Below are positions 3,188-18,401 of a stretch of 64,000 bases of DNA, piece after piece. A model generated the notes under the pieces. It made no database searches. It was given only the letters and a program-made list of their open reading frames with translations, and had not been told where the DNA came from. The stretch lies in NCBI RefSeq assembly GCF_029581195.1, contig NZ_CP120737.1, forward strand, positions 310,001 to 374,000. The letters are read 5' to 3'. The DNA comes from Solwaraspora sp. WMMD791 (GTDB lineage: Bacteria > Actinomycetota > Actinomycetes > Mycobacteriales > Micromonosporaceae). Position 1 is the stretch's first letter. The number at the start of each line of letters is the position of its first letter. The translations under genes and the position numbers were made by a program.

Positions 3188-6100
3188 TTACCTGCCGTAC
3201 ACCTCGAGTTCGTAGAGCGAGTAGCCGTACTGGCTGCCCCGGGTGACGCCGACCAGCCGCAGGTACCGGGCCGTGGTCACCGGGAAGGCGGCCACGTCGG
3301 TGCCGCCGTCGCCGACGGCGGTGGACCAGACGGTCCGCCAGTCGTCGCCGTCGGCAGAGACCTCGATCCGGTACGCCCGGCCGTAGGCCGCCTCCCAGTG
3401 CAGCACCGCTCGCCCGACCGGGCGGGCACTACCCAGGTCGACGCGGATCCACTGGTCGTCGGACCAGTCGCTGGCCCAGCGGGTGCCCCGGTGGCCGTCG
3501 ACCGCCCGGCCGACCGGGTTGCCCAGCTGGCTGCTGCTGGCGCTGACCGGTCGGCCGGCGGCCAGGTTGGTCACGTCGTCGCCCCGGCCGGCCGGGAAGG
3601 ACACCACCTGCTGGTAGGTGGGGCGGTTCTGCCAGGCGATCAGCGCCTGGTTGATGCCACCCAGCGGGGAGTGCACGATCGCGTCGGCGCACCACTGGTC
3701 GCCGGCGGCACAGTGCGCGTCGCCCGGATAGGTGGTCGTCGCCGGTTCGGCCAGCGCCGCCCGCAGGCTGTCCAGCAGCACCTGCCGGCACGCCGCCGGT
3801 GACCCGCCGCCGCAGAAGGTGTCGCCCAGCCCGGCCGCGACCGGCTCGCCGAGCACGGCGCGCAGGTCCTTGTCGACGTAGCCCCACCAGCCGTACTGGA
3901 ACGACGAGCCCTTGTGGGTCTGCGCCGAGTTGGCCGAGGTGGGCAGTTGGGAGACGTCGCCGCGCTGCTGCCCGGACGGCGACTCGTTGATCATCAGCGC
4001 GTCGATCAGCGACCGGTAGAGCTGGTCACCGAGTCCGGGCCGGAACTGCGCCCGGACCAGCAACGGCCACCACGCGTCGAGCACCCGGATCGCCTCGGCA
4101 TGCCGGTAGACCTTGCTGCCGGCGGCGGTCTCCACCCGTAGCGCGCCGTCGGCGTGCCAGGCCCGTAGCGCCGCGATCGCCTCGGCCAGGGCCGGATCGG
4201 TGACCGGCTGGCTGTCGAGCACCCGCAGGACGGTGCCGAGCACCTCGGCGCCGCGCAGGTCGGTCAACCCGGCCCGCTGCACCAGGGCCACCACGTCGGC
4301 GCGGTCGAGCGTGCGTCCGGCCGCCACGGCGGCCCGGACCGGTACGTCGAGCAGGTCGCCCCGGTGCACGGCGCCGAAGCTGAAGTTGCCGTCGGCGGCA
4401 CCGAAGTCCGTGGCCTGCTTGTTGTTCCAGCTGACGTAGTAGTCCTGGTCGATCGACTGCGGCTTCGACGACGCCGGGGCGTACCGGGCGGTGTTGGTGG
4501 CCGGGTCGTAGTCGAGCCACTCGTACGCCGGTTCGGCCCGCATCGGCAGGTTCGGGTCGGCCCCGGGGGTGCGGACCGGGTTGCGCCCGGAGGTGAACAT
4601 CGCGGACTCGGTCGAGTTGACGTAGAACCAGTTGAAGGCGAACTCGACGTTGTCGGCGGTGTCGATGAAGTCGGCCGCGGTGCCCATCACGGCCGGGTCG
4701 TTGAACATCTGGAACCCGATCGCCGAATCTGCCTCGTGCCGGTAGGTGGAACGCAACTGGGTGAAGGCGTGCGGCTGGCCGTCGACCAGCGCCCGCCAGC
4801 CGACCAGGCCGAGCTGGGTCCGCCAGGTGACCAGCCGGTACGACCCGGCTGGGGTGGGGTCGGCGACGGTGGGCGACCAGCGGTTGACGTGCGACAGCTC
4901 CTCCATCGCCAGGCACTGGCCCCGGTACCGGTAGTGGTTGCTGGCCAGCGTCGGGGCGGTACCGTCGGGGCTGCACAGCGGTACGGCGTACGTGTCGGTG
5001 ATGTCGTGGATGGACGAGGTGGCACTCCACGCGTAGTCGGATCCCCGGCCGAGCAGGACGTAGAGGTTGAGTCCGGCGAACGCGACGCCCCGGGCGCTGA
5101 TCCCTGGTCCCTGCAGTTCCTGGACCATCAGCAGTTGCGGGGCGAAGTAGCCGGTCTGCGGGCCGAACACCGCGATCGGGTGCCCGGTGGCGGAGTGCTC
5201 GGCTCCGATCACGACCGCGTTGGACATGCCACGCGGGGCGGCGCCGATGGTGAGCCCGGCGAGGGCGGCGGCACCGGCGGTGGACCCGTCGTCCGTCGCC
5301 GTCGGGACGGCCGAACCGGTCGGGTCGGTGACCACCGGCTCCACCCGCGCGGTGCCGGCGTCGGGCAGCACCACGCTGGTGGCGTCGGTCGGGCTGGCCC
5401 CGTACGGGAAGCTCTGCCCGTCGTGCAAAGTCAGTACCGTCTCCGGGTCGTTGGCGGCGCGGAACCCTTCCCACACCCGGTCCCCGGCGACCGGTCCGTA
5501 GCGGGCCTGCGCGGCCACCCGGACCAGGGCCGACTGCATTTCGGTGCCGCCTCCGCCGCCGAAGAGTCCACCGATGACCCCGGCGATGGCGATCAGGTCG
5601 GTCAGTTGGAACGGTTCCGGCCCGCCGGCGTTGGTGATCGCGTCGAGGTGCCCGGTGAGGACGTACTCGCCGGGGCAGTTGCGCGCGGCCATGCAGTCGC
5701 TGATGTAAGCGTTGACGCCGGCGACGTAGGCGGTGACGTCCTGGTAGAGCAGCTCGCCCCGGTCGCCGCGCTGACGCAGCGCGGTGACCTGCGCGTCCAG
5801 GTCGGCCTGGGTGTACGGCGCGGTGCGCCACAGGCTCTGCTCCAGCTCGCGGTTGCCCGGGGCGCCGCCGGCGAACGAGGTGAGGGTGCCGCGTCCGACG
5901 TGGCGTAGCAGGTCCATGGTGAACAGTCGGTCCTCGGCTCCGGCGTAGCCGGCACCGTACATCGTGCCGGACCGGGTGGTGCCGGTGACGTGCGGTACGC
6001 CGGTTGCCTTGTCCCGCACGACGGTCACGTCCGAGCGGGGCTGGTAGCTGCGGGCGACCTGTCCGGCAGGTACCCCGAACGACGCGTCGGTGAAGAAGGT

Positions 6101-6445
6101 GTCGATCTGCTCGTCGGCCAGGCCGGCGTAGCCGTAGACCAGTCTGGCGTAGCGGTCGAGCTGGTCCCGGGCGTGCGGCGGGTAGGTGCCGAAGGCCTGG
6201 TGGCCGAGGATGTCGACGAGGGTGGCGTTGCCGTTCTGCCCGGGCGGCAGGATGTCGGCGCACTCGTCGAGGCAGTAGTCCACGGTGGTGGACGCGGCGG
6301 CAGGGGACTGGTCGGGGGCGGTCACCGGGGCTGGGGTGTCCGTTGACGGGGCGGCGGTGGCCGGCACGGCGAGTGCTCCGCCGCCGAGCACGGCGGCGGT
6401 CAGGACGGCGACCACGGGTCTGGCGAGTCCGGTGCGCAGGGGCAT
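3188..6445 (-). CDS. Secreted penicillin acylase family protein with C-terminal F5/8 type C domain
   Basis: About 1085 residues. A Sec signal (basic MPLRTGLARP, hydrophobic core, AxA site) precedes a penicillin-amidase/AHL-acylase-type N-terminal-nucleophile hydrolase. The probable nucleophile after autocleavage is Ser408 in APRGMSNAVVIGAEH, followed by GHPIAVFGPQTGYFAPQ. The last 120 residues (NLAAGRPVSASSSQ... to YSLYELEVYGR) form an F5/8 type C (discoidin/CBM32-like) module that would bind sugars or surfaces. Substrate cannot be read from sequence: beta-lactams, acyl-homoserine lactones and lipopeptides are all possible. I choose ATG 6445 rather than the in-frame ATG at 6457 because GGAGG then sits seven bases upstream. 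It is divergent from another secreted enzyme. Confidence 0.88.
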   Translation of the reverse strand: MPLRTGLARPVVAVLTAAVLGGGALAVPATAAPSTDTPAPVTAPDQSPAAASTTVDYCLDECADILPPGQNGNATLVDILGHQAFGTYPPHARDQLDRYARLVYGYAGLADEQIDTFFTDASFGVPAGQVARSYQPRSDVTVVRDKATGVPHVTGTTRSGTMYGAGYAGAEDRLFTMDLLRHVGRGTLTSFAGGAPGNRELEQSLWRTAPYTQADLDAQVTALRQRGDRGELLYQDVTAYVAGVNAYISDCMAARNCPGEYVLTGHLDAITNAGGPEPFQLTDLIAIAGVIGGLFGGGGGTEMQSALVRVAAQARYGPVAGDRVWEGFRAANDPETVLTLHDGQSFPYGASPTDATSVVLPDAGTARVEPVVTDPTGSAVPTATDDGSTAGAAALAGLTIGAAPRGMSNAVVIGAEHSATGHPIAVFGPQTGYFAPQLLMVQELQGPGISARGVAFAGLNLYVLLGRGSDYAWSATSSIHDITDTYAVPLCSPDGTAPTLASNHYRYRGQCLAMEELSHVNRWSPTVADPTPAGSYRLVTWRTQLGLVGWRALVDGQPHAFTQLRSTYRHEADSAIGFQMFNDPAVMGTAADFIDTADNVEFAFNWFYVNSTESAMFTSGRNPVRTPGADPNLPMRAEPAYEWLDYDPATNTARYAPASSKPQSIDQDYYVSWNNKQATDFGAADGNFSFGAVHRGDLLDVPVRAAVAAGRTLDRADVVALVQRAGLTDLRGAEVLGTVLRVLDSQPVTDPALAEAIAALRAWHADGALRVETAAGSKVYRHAEAIRVLDAWWPLLVRAQFRPGLGDQLYRSLIDALMINESPSGQQRGDVSQLPTSANSAQTHKGSSFQYGWWGYVDKDLRAVLGEPVAAGLGDTFCGGGSPAACRQVLLDSLRAALAEPATTTYPGDAHCAAGDQWCADAIVHSPLGGINQALIAWQNRPTYQQVVSFPAGRGDDVTNLAAGRPVSASSSQLGNPVGRAVDGHRGTRWASDWSDDQWIRVDLGSARPVGRAVLHWEAAYGRAYRIEVSADGDDWRTVWSTAVGDGGTDVAAFPVTTARYLRLVGVTRGSQYGYSLYELEVYGR

Positions 6446-6603
6446 GTACGCCTCCATCGGTGGGCGGGGGTGGACCCCCGATGGTCAGAAGTGAAAAAAA
6501 TTCAGTTACTGGATGGTAGCCAGGTGCCGTGCCGGTGCGGAAGATTTAGCTGGCTCGATTATTGTCGGGCATTTCCTGCCAGACTGAGCAGAAGGGACAC
6601 CCG
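6446..6603. promoter_or_regulatory. Divergent intergenic region between two secreted-enzyme genes
   Basis: 158 bases between oppositely oriented genes must hold both promoters. It is locally AT-rich (a run of seven A at about 6494-6500; TTTAGCT and GATTATTG near 6545-6563), unlike its surroundings. I could not assign a convincing -35/-10 pair. The plus-strand gene has an AGAAGGGA ribosome-binding site at about 6589-6596. Confidence 0.5.
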
Positions 6604-7995
6604 ATGCGCAGACCTCGACCGTTGGGGCGCCGCCGGACCATCGGCGGCCTCGTCGCGACACTCCTGATCAGTGGCGGACTCGCCACCGGTCCGGCGCCCG
6701 CCGCCGCGACGGCCGCCGCCACCGACCCGGCGACCCCCGCCACCGACCCGGCCGCCACCGGCACCGTCTCGGTGCTGACCTACAACGTCGCCGGCCTGCC
6801 GGCCTGGCTCTCCAGCGGCAACCCCGCCGTCAACACCCGACCGATCGGGCAGCGCATCGGCGCCTACGACGTGGTCCACGTGCAGGAGGACTTCAACTAC
6901 CACGCCGACCTGTACGCCGCCAACGACCACCCACACCGGACTCCGACCAGTGGTGGGGTGCCCTTCGGAGACGGCCTCAACACGCTGTCGCACTACCCGT
7001 ACTCGGACCTGACCCGGGTGCGCTGGAACACCTGCAACGGCACGGACTGCCTCACCCCGAAGGGCTTCACCCGCACCCGGATCCGGCTGGCCGAGGGCGT
7101 CCACGTCGACTTCTACAACGCCCACCCCAACGCCGGCAGCACCGACGCCGACCTGGCCGCCCGCCGGGCCAACATCAGCCAACTCACCGCCTACATCCTG
7201 GCCAACTCGGCCGGCAACGCGGTGGTCGTCGCCGGTGACACCAACACCCGGTGGACCCGGTCCGGGGACAACATCCGCGACCTCGTCAGCGCCGCCGGGC
7301 TCACCGACGCCTGGGTTCAGGCCGAGCGCGACGGCGTGCCACCGGCCGCCGGCAGCCCGGCTCTGGTCTGCGATCCGGCGCTGGTCACCGCCGCCTGTGA
7401 GGTGGTCGACAAGATCCTCTACCGGGGCAACCGGCTCATCGATCTCGACCTGGTGAGCTACGCCAACGACAACGCCGCGTTCCTCGACTCCGCCGGCCGG
7501 CCGTTGTCGGACCACTATCCGATCGCCGCCACCCTGCGCTGGACTCTCGCCGGCGACCTGCGGATGAGCGACGACTGGGGCGGCCCGCACGGCACCCCGT
7601 TCACCGACGTGGACCAGGTCCGCCCCGGCGGCCAGGTCGGCCGGATCGCCGTACGGGGCGGAGCCCGGCTGGATCAGGTGTCGCTGACCCTGTCCGACGG
7701 GCCGACCCTGACCCACGGCGGTGCCGGCGGGAACCTCGTCGGCCTGGACCTGGCCCCGGGGGAGTACCTCACCCAGGCGACGCTGACCCGGGGACAGCGC
7801 GACGGCCGGACCCGGGTGTTCTCCGCGCGGTTCGTCACCAACCTCGGCCGGGTGCTGGCCGCCGGCACGCCGACCAGTGACACGGTCACCTACGTCGCCC
7901 CGGCCGGCTGGCAGATCGGCGGCTTCCACGGCCGCGCCGGCAGCGAGGTCGACCGGCTCGGGATGATCTGGACCCCGGCACCGGCGTCGCCTTAG
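6604..7995 (+). CDS. Secreted DNase I-fold (EEP) phosphodiesterase with jacalin-like lectin domain
   Basis: 463 residues with a signal peptide (MRRPRPLGRRR, then a hydrophobic stretch to about 36). The first domain (about 50-320) is an endonuclease/exonuclease/phosphatase fold of the sphingomyelinase-like type: TYNVAGLP, HVQEDF, NAHPNAG, VVVAGDTNTRW and SDHYPIAA supply the usual Asn, Glu, His, Asp/Asn and Asp-His residues for Mg-dependent phosphodiester cleavage. Residues about 330-463 look like a jacalin-type beta-prism (IAVRGGARLDQV, THGGAGGN, IGGFHGRAGSEVDRLGMIW). Substrate could be phospholipid head groups or DNA. ATG 6604 has a good ribosome-binding site; the upstream in-frame TTG does not. 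Its stop overlaps the convergent gene's stop. Confidence 0.85.
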   Translation: MRRPRPLGRRRTIGGLVATLLISGGLATGPAPAAATAAATDPATPATDPAATGTVSVLTYNVAGLPAWLSSGNPAVNTRPIGQRIGAYDVVHVQEDFNYHADLYAANDHPHRTPTSGGVPFGDGLNTLSHYPYSDLTRVRWNTCNGTDCLTPKGFTRTRIRLAEGVHVDFYNAHPNAGSTDADLAARRANISQLTAYILANSAGNAVVVAGDTNTRWTRSGDNIRDLVSAAGLTDAWVQAERDGVPPAAGSPALVCDPALVTAACEVVDKILYRGNRLIDLDLVSYANDNAAFLDSAGRPLSDHYPIAATLRWTLAGDLRMSDDWGGPHGTPFTDVDQVRPGGQVGRIAVRGGARLDQVSLTLSDGPTLTHGGAGGNLVGLDLAPGEYLTQATLTRGQRDGRTRVFSARFVTNLGRVLAAGTPTSDTVTYVAPAGWQIGGFHGRAGSEVDRLGMIWTPAPASP

Positions 7996-16159: not shown

Positions 16160-16702
16160 CTACCGTGCGGCGCGTCCTCGTCGGCGGCCCTGGCCAGCGG
16201 GGGTAGGCCGGCGCAGCAGCCGTACCCGACCGGCGACCTGGACCACGACGCCGTCCGGCGTCCGACGCAGGGCCGGCCACCAGCGGGGCCGGGGCCCGGA
16301 GCGGCCATCGTAGCGCCAGCGGACCTCGGCGGCGGCGAGTGCGGTCCGGGCGGTCGCCGGAAGCTGTCCGTCGTCGGCCAGCCGGCGGGCCAGGTCCCAG
16401 CCGTCGCGCCAGCCGCCGACCGGCGGCCGGCCCCGCGCCCAGTCGACGAAGACGGCGGGCCACCGGTCGGCGAGCGAGTGGACCAGGTCGGGCCAGTGCC
16501 GGGCCAGCTCGCCGGCCCGCTTGTGCAGCAGCGCCCGGCGGGCCACAGCGAGCCGGTGCCGGTCGAAGCCGACCGGGTCGGCCGCGCCCGCCACGAGCGC
16601 GGCGACCAGCGCCCGCTGGGCGGCGGCCAGTCCGTCGGCACCGCCGGGCGGGCCGCCGTCGGGTGCGGGCCCGACGCCGGTACGGGGCACCGACCGGCTC
16701 AC
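16160..16702 (-). CDS. Uncharacterised partner protein of the DUF692 oxidase
   Basis: 180 residues, no signal or membrane helix. The central part (about 28-130) is helical with many Trp and Arg (LVAALVAGAADPVGFDRHRL, ARRALLHKRAGELARHWPDL, DRWPAVFVDWARG, GGWRDGWDLARRL), followed by a basic beta-rich end (VVVQVAGRVRLLRRP) and RRRGRAAR tail. GTG 16702 overlaps the DUF692 stop (GTGA), so expression is coupled. In known MNIO systems a second protein (for example MbnC or a DUF2063 protein) delivers the precursor; this protein takes the same place in the gene order, although I see no clear DUF2063 signature. Function inferred from context only. Confidence 0.7.
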   Translation of the reverse strand: MSRSVPRTGVGPAPDGGPPGGADGLAAAQRALVAALVAGAADPVGFDRHRLAVARRALLHKRAGELARHWPDLVHSLADRWPAVFVDWARGRPPVGGWRDGWDLARRLADDGQLPATARTALAAAEVRWRYDGRSGPRPRWWPALRRTPDGVVVQVAGRVRLLRRPTPAGQGRRRGRAAR

Positions 16703-17520
16703 GTGACCGGTGCCAGTCCGGCCGCCACCGCGACCGCGTCCAACTCGGCGCGCAGCTGGGCCGCCGGCGGATAGTGGCCGTCGCGTTCCAGCAGCACCGC
16801 CGGCGGTCGACGGCGGGCGGACAGGTCGGCGAGCAGCCCCAGCACCTCGGCGGGCACCGCGTCGGTGTGCGTGTCGTGGTAGATCCCGTCGTGGTCGGCG
16901 GCACCGCCGGCCACGTGCAGGTAGGCGATCCGGTCCAGCGGCATCCGCTCCAGCACGGCGAGCGGGTCCTGCCCCCGGTTGCGGGCGTTGGCGTACACGT
17001 TGGCGACGTCGAGCAGCAGCAGCGCGTCGCAGCGGTCGAGGATCTCGGTGACGAAGTCCGGCTCGTCGAACTCGTCGTCGGGCCAGTCGAAGAGCGCGGC
17101 GATCGGTTCGAGGGCCAGCGGCACCGGCAGGTTCGCGCGGGCGCGGGCCACGTTCGCCACCACCGCGTCGACGGCGGCCCGGGTCCGTGGCAACGGCAGC
17201 AGATGACCGGCCTCGACGCCGCCGGCCCGCACGAACGCGATGTGCTCGCTGACCAGCGGGGCGTCCAGCAGCTGCGCGACCCGGGCCAGTCGGGTGACCC
17301 GGGTCGCCTCGACCGGCTCGGCACCACCGAGGGAGAGCCGTACGCCGTGCGGGACGACGGCCACGCCGCGTGCGCGCAGCGCGGCCAGCTGCGGGTCGAT
17401 CGGCCGGTCCGGGTCGACCGACTCGGCGATCACCTCGGTGAACCGCAGTCCGGGCAGCGCCGCCACGACTCCGGCGATCTCCGTACGCCAGCCGATGCCG
17501 ACGCCGTACGGTCCGGTCAT
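16699..17520 (-). CDS. DUF692 multinuclear non-heme iron oxidative enzyme (MNIO)
   Basis: 273 residues forming a TIM-barrel of the MbnB/TglH (DUF692) family. Conserved metal-ligand and active-site motifs are present in order: GVGIGWR (6-12), VVPHGVRLSLGG (H58), LVSEHIAF (E92, H93), LALEPIA (E138), LLLLDVANVYANARN (D171, N174), YLHVAGG (H202), YHDTHTDAVP (H215, D216, H218) and LLERDGHYP (E245). Characterised relatives use two or three iron ions to oxidise cysteines or nearby residues of ribosomally made peptides. I start at ATG 17520, which overlaps the stop of the upstream gene (ATGA), instead of an earlier in-frame codon inside that gene. The likely substrate is the Gly/Cys tail encoded immediately upstream. 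Confidence 0.92.
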   Translation of the reverse strand: MTGPYGVGIGWRTEIAGVVAALPGLRFTEVIAESVDPDRPIDPQLAALRARGVAVVPHGVRLSLGGAEPVEATRVTRLARVAQLLDAPLVSEHIAFVRAGGVEAGHLLPLPRTRAAVDAVVANVARARANLPVPLALEPIAALFDWPDDEFDEPDFVTEILDRCDALLLLDVANVYANARNRGQDPLAVLERMPLDRIAYLHVAGGAADHDGIYHDTHTDAVPAEVLGLLADLSARRRPPAVLLERDGHYPPAAQLRAELDAVAVAAGLAPVT

Positions 17521-18401
17521 CCGCCGCACCCGCCGCAGCCGCCACCGCACCCGCCGCCGCCGTCACCCCCACCACCGTCGCCACCGCCGCCGCCGTCGCC
17601 CCCACCGGAGTTGGTGGCGTTGCGCTGGATCTCGGCGGTCTGCGCGAAGTCCGGATCCATCGTCCACAGCGCTACCGCCCCAAACAGTGCGACCCCCATC
17701 GCGGCATCGGCCGCGCCATAGGTGGCGTACGAAGGCCGGTTGCTGGGCGCGAGGTGCCGGTGCCGGCGGGCCAACTCCGCCAGGGCCCGCCGGCCGGCGG
17801 CGGTGACCGCGGGGACCTTGATGGTCAGGAAGAGTCCGATCGGGACGGTCAGGGCCAACAGCAGCATCAGGTAGCCGATCGGGCGGCCGGTCGACATTCC
17901 GGCGATCAGCCGCAGTACGCCGACGCCCGCCAGCACCAGCATCGCGGCGCCCAGCCAGCGGGCGGTGGCGCGGCGGGCCGGCGGGACCAGCAGGTCACGG
18001 TCGGCCAGCCGGCCGTACAGGCGGTCCAGGCTCTGCCGTACCCAGACGTTGTCCGACAGGTCACGGACCCGGCGCTGCTCGTGGGCGCAGCGGTGGACGG
18101 TCGCGGTGAGATCGTCGGCGCCGGCCGGGAGCGGTCCGGGCGCGCTCAGCCTGCCACCGGGGGCGACGTCGATCGCCCCGGCGCTGCGTAGGGCGCCGAG
18201 GGCGGACTGCACGGCACGCTGGGCACCGCCGGTGAGGTAGGCGACCTCGGTGCCGGTGAGCTCACCTGACCGGGTCTGCTCCCGGCCGGCCAGCGCCAGC
18301 AGCCGGTAGGCCACGTTGACCAGCAGCAGAATCGCCGCCGTGAATCCGAACAAGGCCAGGAAGGTGGGGCCGGGGATGCCCCAGGTGTCGCCGGACGTCA
18401 T
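17517..18401 (-). CDS. TIGR04222-like membrane protein with Gly/Cys-rich C-terminal tail (likely MNIO substrate)
   Basis: 294 residues. One membrane helix near the N-terminus (about 12-38), a soluble domain (40-145), then three more helices (149-169, 174-194, 233-247). After the last helix the chain becomes low complexity: NATNSGGGDGGGGGD and on to GGCGGGCGGCGG at the very end, with Cys at 285, 289 and 292. The sequence matches my memory of TIGR04222, a domain whose members end in GGCGG-type tails and lie beside DUF692 genes. ATG 18401 has GGAGG five bases upstream; an earlier in-frame codon lacks this. The stop overlaps the DUF692 start. The tail is an obvious candidate for oxidative modification and metal or redox chemistry. 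Confidence 0.88.
   Translation of the reverse strand: MTSGDTWGIPGPTFLALFGFTAAILLLVNVAYRLLALAGREQTRSGELTGTEVAYLTGGAQRAVQSALGALRSAGAIDVAPGGRLSAPGPLPAGADDLTATVHRCAHEQRRVRDLSDNVWVRQSLDRLYGRLADRDLLVPPARRATARWLGAAMLVLAGVGVLRLIAGMSTGRPIGYLMLLLALTVPIGLFLTIKVPAVTAAGRRALAELARRHRHLAPSNRPSYATYGAADAAMGVALFGAVALWTMDPDFAQTAEIQRNATNSGGGDGGGGGDGGGGDGGGGCGGGCGGCGG

Follow-up and report, generated by a model that had tools for sequence, protein, structure and literature searches.

Three genes on the minus strand at positions 16160-18401 of the 64,000-nucleotide stretch of Solwaraspora sp. WMMD791 DNA analysed (the window) encode a TIGR04222 membrane protein ending in a Gly-rich tail that carries Cys residues, a DUF692 (MNIO) oxidase and a 180-aa protein. 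Consecutive genes of this operon overlap by 4 bases. The set is probably a three-part protein modification unit, in which oxidation by the MNIO would turn the membrane protein's tail into a tethered chelator; modification, chemistry, metal, side of the membrane and function are as we infer them. The 180-aa protein, a putative DUF2063-like partner, would dock on the MNIO and present to it the flexible Cys-Gly tail, and the MNIO would oxidise the tail Cys one after another. The likeliest products would be 5-thiooxazole or oxazolone-thioamide groups, as with characterised relatives, and the modified tail, still joined to its protein, would be a chelator tethered to the membrane, probably on the cytoplasmic side, with copper as the likeliest metal. 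Copper and thiooxazole are suggested by analogy, HvfBC being known to make 5-thiooxazoles (PMC13419390, PMC13097082). The features of the locus are:

17517..18401, minus strand: gene of the TIGR04222 membrane protein (ATG start, 294 aa; NCBIfam TIGR04222)
17520..17609, minus strand: Gly-rich tail, residues 265-294, the proposed MNIO substrate (direct reading, low predicted local distance difference test score, or pLDDT, and tail statistics of relatives)
16699..17520, minus strand: gene of the MNIO (DUF692) oxidase (ATG start, 273 aa; PF05114)
16160..16702, minus strand: gene of the MNIO partner, probably PME-type 2 (GTG start, 180 aa)
17517..17520, minus strand: 4-base overlap of the TIGR04222 stop (TGA) and the MNIO ATG, read from the sequence
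16699..16702, minus strand: 4-base overlap of the MNIO stop and the partner GTG start, read from the sequence

Both overlaps, the second involving a gene of no known family, had been pointed out in a preliminary description of this DNA, together with the three tail Cys and the intact metal-ligand motifs of the DUF692 gene, and all are borne out.

The oxidase, the membrane protein and its tail

The oxidase matches the Pfam model PF05114 over profile positions 1-259 of 263 (E 8.8e-76), and is a member of this family. It was aligned with the matches scoring above 200 bits, 75 MNIOs in all. Residues H58, H93, E138, D171, N174, H202, D216, H218 and E245 are identical in the whole set, and position 92 is occupied by E in 69 sequences and by D in 6. 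The window MNIO aligns with 3BWW and with the DUF692 chain of 8HCI/8HI7. By mapping via 3BWW, N174, D216 and H218 fall on the site-3 residues named for HvfB; the other positions are taken by us to be ligands from conservation and general knowledge of the family. The protein scores below every NCBIfam equivalog cut-off, reaching 174 of the 310 bits set for BufB, 159 of 360 for HvfB, 104 of 400 for ApyH, 55 of 600 for ChrH and 31.9 of 325 for MbnB. Its closest relatives among the named loci described below are found in Micromonospora (78% identity).

The membrane protein belongs to the TIGR04222 family (E 2.2e-45, 155 bits, cut-off 43). The AlphaFold model, with a mean pLDDT of 86.7, features long helices at residues 11-38, 141-171 and 176-194, and a broken helix at 225-240/242-248. 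The break falls at residue 241, and G241 is one of two invariant columns among 46 sequences. The tail appears flexible, pLDDT being below 50 over residues 267-274, 276-288 and 291-294. The predicted topology, in which sidedness is derived from charges, places the N-terminus outside, and comprises a cytosolic loop at about residues 40-140, a transmembrane (TM) hairpin at 141-194, the weak broken helix and the tail. Four TM segments had been proposed for this protein. Three of them are clear. The fourth is doubtful: besides being broken in the model, it scores 1.6 on a simplified membrane scale, on which clear TM segments of this protein score -0.8 and -0.1. Between TM1 and TM2 lies a loop similar to the GPP34 domain (hhalign P 6.5e-4), which is cytosolic. 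Comparison of the fold with the PDB gave no match at E<=0.001. A weak second TIGR04222 match in the source genome (about 6.77 Mb), at L002:1303-2076, corresponds to a GPP34 protein (PF05719, E 1.3e-31).

Relatives were collected from 296 Actinomycetes genomes, and the statistics given throughout are not corrected for relatedness. The tabulation covers at least 107 TIGR04222 places scoring above the cut-off and at least 86 PF05114 (MNIO) places; the counts are lower bounds, since no more than 9 initial candidates were scored in each genome. Later pieces of counted frames and TIGR04222 matches below the cut-off were left out. A second set is formed by 80 named loci (the best 80 of 416, partly from the same genomes) plus locus L221. 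Cys tails were defined by the presence, in the last 60 residues, of at least three Cys and a Gly plus Ser fraction above 0.45, a rule that leaves outside the 2-Cys tails of L283 and L294.

In the window tail Asp residues occupy the proximal part and Cys residues the distal one. The Cys codons are located at 17547-17549 (Cys 285), 17535-17537 (Cys 289) and 17526-17528 (Cys 292), Gly follows each Cys, and CGG makes up the last three residues of the protein. The same grammar recurs in relatives. In 49 Cys tails Gly follows 206 of the 242 Cys, as compared to 129 +- 6.9 Cys-Gly steps obtained by shuffling, and no two Cys are adjacent or separated by a single residue, versus 48.5 +- 5.2 such pairs in shuffled tails. 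The 65 tails examined at the named loci again lack close pairs (68.0 +- 6.1 expected); their Cys-Gly steps are 260 versus 172.7 +- 7.6, and 45 of them terminate with GCGG. At 24 chosen Micromonosporaceae loci, a comparison omitting L274 because of its frameshifted tail, the TIGR04222 protein adjacent to the MNIO has 3-5 Cys, a GCGG end and a variable linker. The recurrence of this grammar argues that the tail is more than a product of chance. FonBC is reported to take four hydrogens per Cys repeat and to favour a small residue after Cys (PMC13097082).

Tail Cys might alternatively result from drift, TGC codons having arisen from GGC Gly codons in a low-complexity tail next to an MNIO gene by coincidence. 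The tail is indeed encoded by GGC-rich repeats, and tail frameshifts are found in L251 and L274. Drift is nonetheless very improbable, as 6 of the 7 Gly-rich tails found in MNIO-free genomes have 0-2 Cys, and neither the lack of close Cys pairs nor the frequent GCGG end fits with it. In L251 and L274 the frameshift lies within the G-rich stretch encoding the TIGR04222 tail, and denotes either a sequencing error or a real loss.

A scan for promoters and terminators at the locus, uninformative at this G+C content, found none, and a check for a plasmid origin gave no near match.

Association of the tail with MNIO genes

TIGR04222 and MNIO genes were regarded as linked when found within 5 kb on the same contig. 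By this measure 62 of the 107 TIGR04222 places are linked, all on the same strand as the MNIO, and so are 54 of the 86 MNIOs. Of the 49 TIGR04222 proteins with Cys tails, 42 are linked, 6 belong to genomes whose MNIO lies elsewhere, and 1, encoded at a contig end in genome G067, has no MNIO. The corresponding figures for the 58 tail-less proteins are 20, 16 and 22. Counted by genome, 45 of the 46 that encode a Cys-tailed TIGR04222 protein have an MNIO, versus 17 of the 38 whose TIGR04222 proteins are all tail-less (Fisher 1.4e-8). When Gly/Ser-rich TIGR04222 tails alone are considered, those with at least three Cys number 48 in genomes that have an MNIO and 1 in genomes that do not; for those with fewer Cys the numbers are 3 and 6. 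In the absence of MNIO, therefore, Gly-rich tails persist while Cys mostly do not. The association varies among family labels. Label f16 genomes have Cys tail and MNIO in 10 cases, neither in 9, MNIO only in 1; label f18 (Streptomyces-type) genomes have both in 9 and MNIO only in 14; label f26 genomes are split 1-1-1. Absence of the tail from most DUF692-linked homologues had been indicated beforehand as an outcome speaking against the substrate role. This is not what is seen overall, over two thirds of the linked TIGR04222 proteins being tailed; it is seen in the Streptomyces-type group, where tails are found at 9 of 26 loci.

Of the 81 loci in the second set, 63 encode a TIGR04222 protein whose tail satisfies the rule, and 6 encode a Frankia-type carrier and no TIGR04222 protein. 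At 6 other loci the TIGR04222 protein does not comply with the rule. L251 and L274 are frameshifted; direct reading reveals near the end 4 Cys in L265, 3 in L275, 2 in L283 and 2 in L294.

The tail is the part common to different carriers. At 10 of the 32 MNIO places that lack a linked TIGR04222 gene the tail is borne by an unrelated protein. Eight of these carriers (L084, L098, L102, L135, L165, L173, L185, L187) are single-TM proteins of 83-119 aa; six fall in the Frankia/Pseudofrankia family label, each with 3 to 6 His past the TM segment. The two others, L167 and L190, are longer open frames (452 and 476 aa) that match nothing in Pfam at 0.1. Outside TIGR04222 frames, 13 of 4325 open reading frames (ORFs) on the MNIO strand have such a tail, compared with 1 of 4390 on the opposite strand and 0 of 4165 in MNIO-free loci. 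The 13 include the 10 carriers described, 2 ends of TIGR04222-like frames (both at L105) and 1 apparently spurious case (L140). An additional carrier is encoded beside the TIGR04222 gene of Embleya scabrispora, at L265:5190-5667. It seems on reading to start with a single TM segment followed by Arg-rich sequence, and a long His-rich stretch, suggestive of metal binding, precedes its Cys tail. In five genomes with the Frankia-type family label (L089, L097, L137, L174, L184) a Cys-tailed TIGR04222 gene lies remote from the MNIO, and four of these genomes also feature a single-TM tail protein beside the MNIO.

The claim that the tail is the MNIO substrate finds support in these comparisons of relatives, and tails are well supported, not proven, as substrates of the MNIO-partner pair. 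The tail could also be the core of a ribosomally synthesised and post-translationally modified peptide (RiPP), with the membrane protein serving as leader or anchor and the modified tail being cleaved and released. The position at the extreme C-terminus would suit a core, and the Cys-modifying MNIOs described act on RiPP precursors (PMC13419390, PMC13097082). Release is improbable, in view of the persistence of the tail while carriers vary and of the composition of the flanks. No fourth gene widely common to the flanks of 31 loci was seen (ORFs of at least 90 aa, E 1e-8, blastp-fast). Beyond the three genes only a region upstream in L233 and L236 recurs, matched in 5 other labels for the first locus and in 4 for the second; with no fourth gene found in more than 5 other labels, no dedicated peptidase or transporter appears to accompany the set.

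The partner protein and the side of the membrane

The product of the third gene, tentatively described as the partner of the MNIO, retains this role upon comparison, and is probably a partner of PME-type 2, as it is encoded beside the MNIO or corresponds to a domain fused to it. Searches of Pfam and NCBIfam gave nothing up to E 1, and family members were found with a profile built from the third gene itself. The family is present at 72 of the 86 MNIO places, in 37 as one continuous frame with the MNIO. Among the 54 TIGR04222-linked MNIOs it is adjacent or fused in 53, fused in 30 of these; at the exception, L188, the partner match is partial. It is found at 80 of the 81 loci of the second set, the remaining one (L300) lying on a contig that ends soon past the MNIO. 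That the two are naturally fused in so many relatives argues for joint action of MNIO and partner. For HvfB and HvfC, an engineered fusion showed markedly higher activity than co-expression of the separate proteins (PMC13419390). The window partner has a 57% match at the Micromonospora matsumotoense locus L253, and Antoine et al. draw a PME-type 2 example, perhaps the same protein, from this species (PMC12452194).

The partner model consists of five helices and three strands (pLDDT 87.7), and is weakly suggestive of a DUF2063-like fold. A profile search of PDB sequences returned one match that is not credible (E 0.55). A search of the whole phylum with the partner profile identified at least 28 of 396 genomes, 26 of them among those previously found; of the two further ones, G582 has the three genes and the tail, and G579 was matched at E 6e-4. 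In L286, L289, L296, L301, L302, L114 and L188 the partner domain is matched over about the first half only, which denotes either a shorter variant or a broken frame. A triple TIGR04222-MNIO-partner fusion, apparent in L251 and L274, was rejected, because after the tail indel the frame crosses the MNIO region out of frame.

The proposal that the tail is modified in place at the membrane finds support in the single-TM carriers. In all eight, Lys/Arg are concentrated behind the 19-residue TM window, with 4-8 in the next 25 residues as opposed to 0-1 ahead of the window (carrier starts were chosen by us, and L165 has one Lys inside the window), and by the positive-inside rule their tails should be cytoplasmic. 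In 44 Cys-tailed TIGR04222 proteins, scoring at least 80 bits and complete in frame, TM1 and TM2/3 have median scores of -0.6 and -0.4, and the segment past TM3 contains on average 6.7 Lys/Arg versus 2.0 Asp/Glu. The best segment past TM3 has a median of 3.55, being at or above 3.5 in 23 proteins, 2-3.5 in 10 and below 2 in 11. A cytoplasmic tail is on the whole favoured a little; the fourth segment of the window protein is itself ambiguous.

According to the published periplasmic view, the tail would be modified first and then exported, to serve beyond the cytoplasm as an anchored chelator of metal. Antoine et al. used the topology of AlphaFold models to predict that tails are periplasmic, and bufferins are exported (PMC12452194). 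The low score of the fourth segment in the window protein and in others of the 44 goes in the same direction. An outside location is a serious contender, unlikely all the same, since no later segment below 3.5 is present in over half of the 44 proteins, the tail is predicted inside in all the single-TM carriers, and the two long carriers have no clear TM segment (best 19-residue means 1.39 and 1.26); moreover, no export signal was seen in the window MNIO by eye, no predictor having been run.

Several observations weigh against a cytoplasm-facing tail modified by the MNIO-partner pair. The window protein and 10 other Cys-tailed proteins have a fourth segment below 2 that could span the membrane, which would leave the tail outside. 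The likeness of the partner to known partners is poor: Foldseek gave no PDB match at E<=0.001, MbnC ranking fourth (E 1.5, probability 0.21), and hhalign against two DUF2063 proteins gave a weak result (P 0.0077, probability 5%). No conserved neighbour pointing to copper was recognised in the flanks, which were compared and not annotated gene by gene. The enzyme also occurs with no tail at its locus. MNIO and partner are found with no Cys tail at 17 of the 26 Streptomyces-type MNIO loci; 13 of these lie beside a tail-less TIGR04222 gene, and the others are in G016, G096, G187 (near a contig end) and G254. A tail search with relaxed criteria at 5 of the 17 gave nothing convincing, tails in trans not having been searched genome-wide. 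A partner and no tail are similarly found at the loci of G160, G282, G034 and G085, at the second MNIO of G095 and at a broken copy in G177; G085, G095 and G177 have a tailed TIGR04222 protein elsewhere in the genome. Neither partner nor tail accompanies 13 MNIO places. In the second set 6 of 81 loci have neither a TIGR04222 protein nor a Frankia-type carrier; the contig ends upstream in L246, L266, L280, L282 and L287, not in L230.

Such loci, where the enzyme is kept without a tail, would suit a scheme in which tail Cys stay unmodified and bind metal as plain thiols, the MNIO acting on another protein, and the His-rich stretches of some carriers likewise suggest direct metal binding. This scheme is quite improbable: Cys in such tails track the presence of MNIO, the tail is what unrelated carriers share, and Cys-Gly spacing is under strong constraint.

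At the Streptomyces-type locus L129 a DUF4142 gene (5907-6728) is located between the fused MNIO-partner gene and the tail-less TIGR04222 gene. ORFs at the same position recur in other Streptomyces-type loci.

Relation to known systems

The association of TIGR04222 and MNIO genes has been described by Antoine et al. in 2025, who proposed the Cys-rich C-terminus of a subset of these proteins as substrate (PMC12452194). The tail-MNIO link, regarded as new in the preliminary description, was therefore already in print. In that account PME-type 2 partners occur in at least 10% of TIGR04222-MNIO clusters, and many clusters apparently lack a partner gene (PMC12452194). The protein pair and the proposed substrate are the same here. 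The differences are that Antoine et al. place the tail in the periplasm, that here nearly all linked MNIOs have a partner, often fused, and that the tail is also found on unrelated carriers. Three points were not found in the published accounts consulted, the supplements of Antoine et al. aside: the exchange of carriers, a partner that is nearly always present and often fused to the MNIO, and the indications of a cytoplasmic tail.

A broader formulation may be put forward, tentatively and with less than even confidence. The tail would be a portable Cys-Gly tag read by the MNIO-partner complex, grafted on at least three kinds of carriers (TIGR04222 proteins, single-TM microproteins that are often His-rich, and long proteins) and oxidised into a permanent metal buffer, mostly membrane-tethered and facing the cytoplasm; the whole would be a protein modification system, not the source of a released peptide. 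If so, MNIOs would decorate resident proteins besides making released peptides, and a short, genetically portable tail would suffice to direct a rare Cys chemistry. There would also be a reason for the existence of tailed TIGR04222 proteins, and wherever a genome has the pair, each Cys-Gly tail that it encodes would be a predicted substrate. Cytoplasmic copper buffering is usually ascribed to thiol proteins; here the membrane would bear thiooxazole-type chelators on its cytoplasmic side. MNIO-partner fusions occurring in nature could serve directly as tools.

Among known systems, those of bufferins, oxazolins and fontiphorin (BufABC, HvfABC, FonABC) are similar in that an MNIO and a partner act on repeated Cys and form copper-binding groups; the EGKCG group within them also shares the action on Cys-Gly. 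As described for these systems, precursors are peptides, mostly with Sec signals, and partners are of PME-type 1, whereas the tail considered here terminates a larger membrane protein or a long protein. No bufferin model in Pfam or NCBIfam matched the 294-aa protein, for which no signal-peptide predictor was run. In the methanobactin system (MbnABC) an MNIO and a partner similarly act on Cys; methanobactin is a released peptide, whereas the tail would stay attached. Microcin B17 has a Gly-rich core in which spaced Cys and Ser turn heterocyclic through the action of different enzymes. Its resemblance to the tail is an analogy only, the weak sequence match (6grh, E 0.42) reflecting composition.

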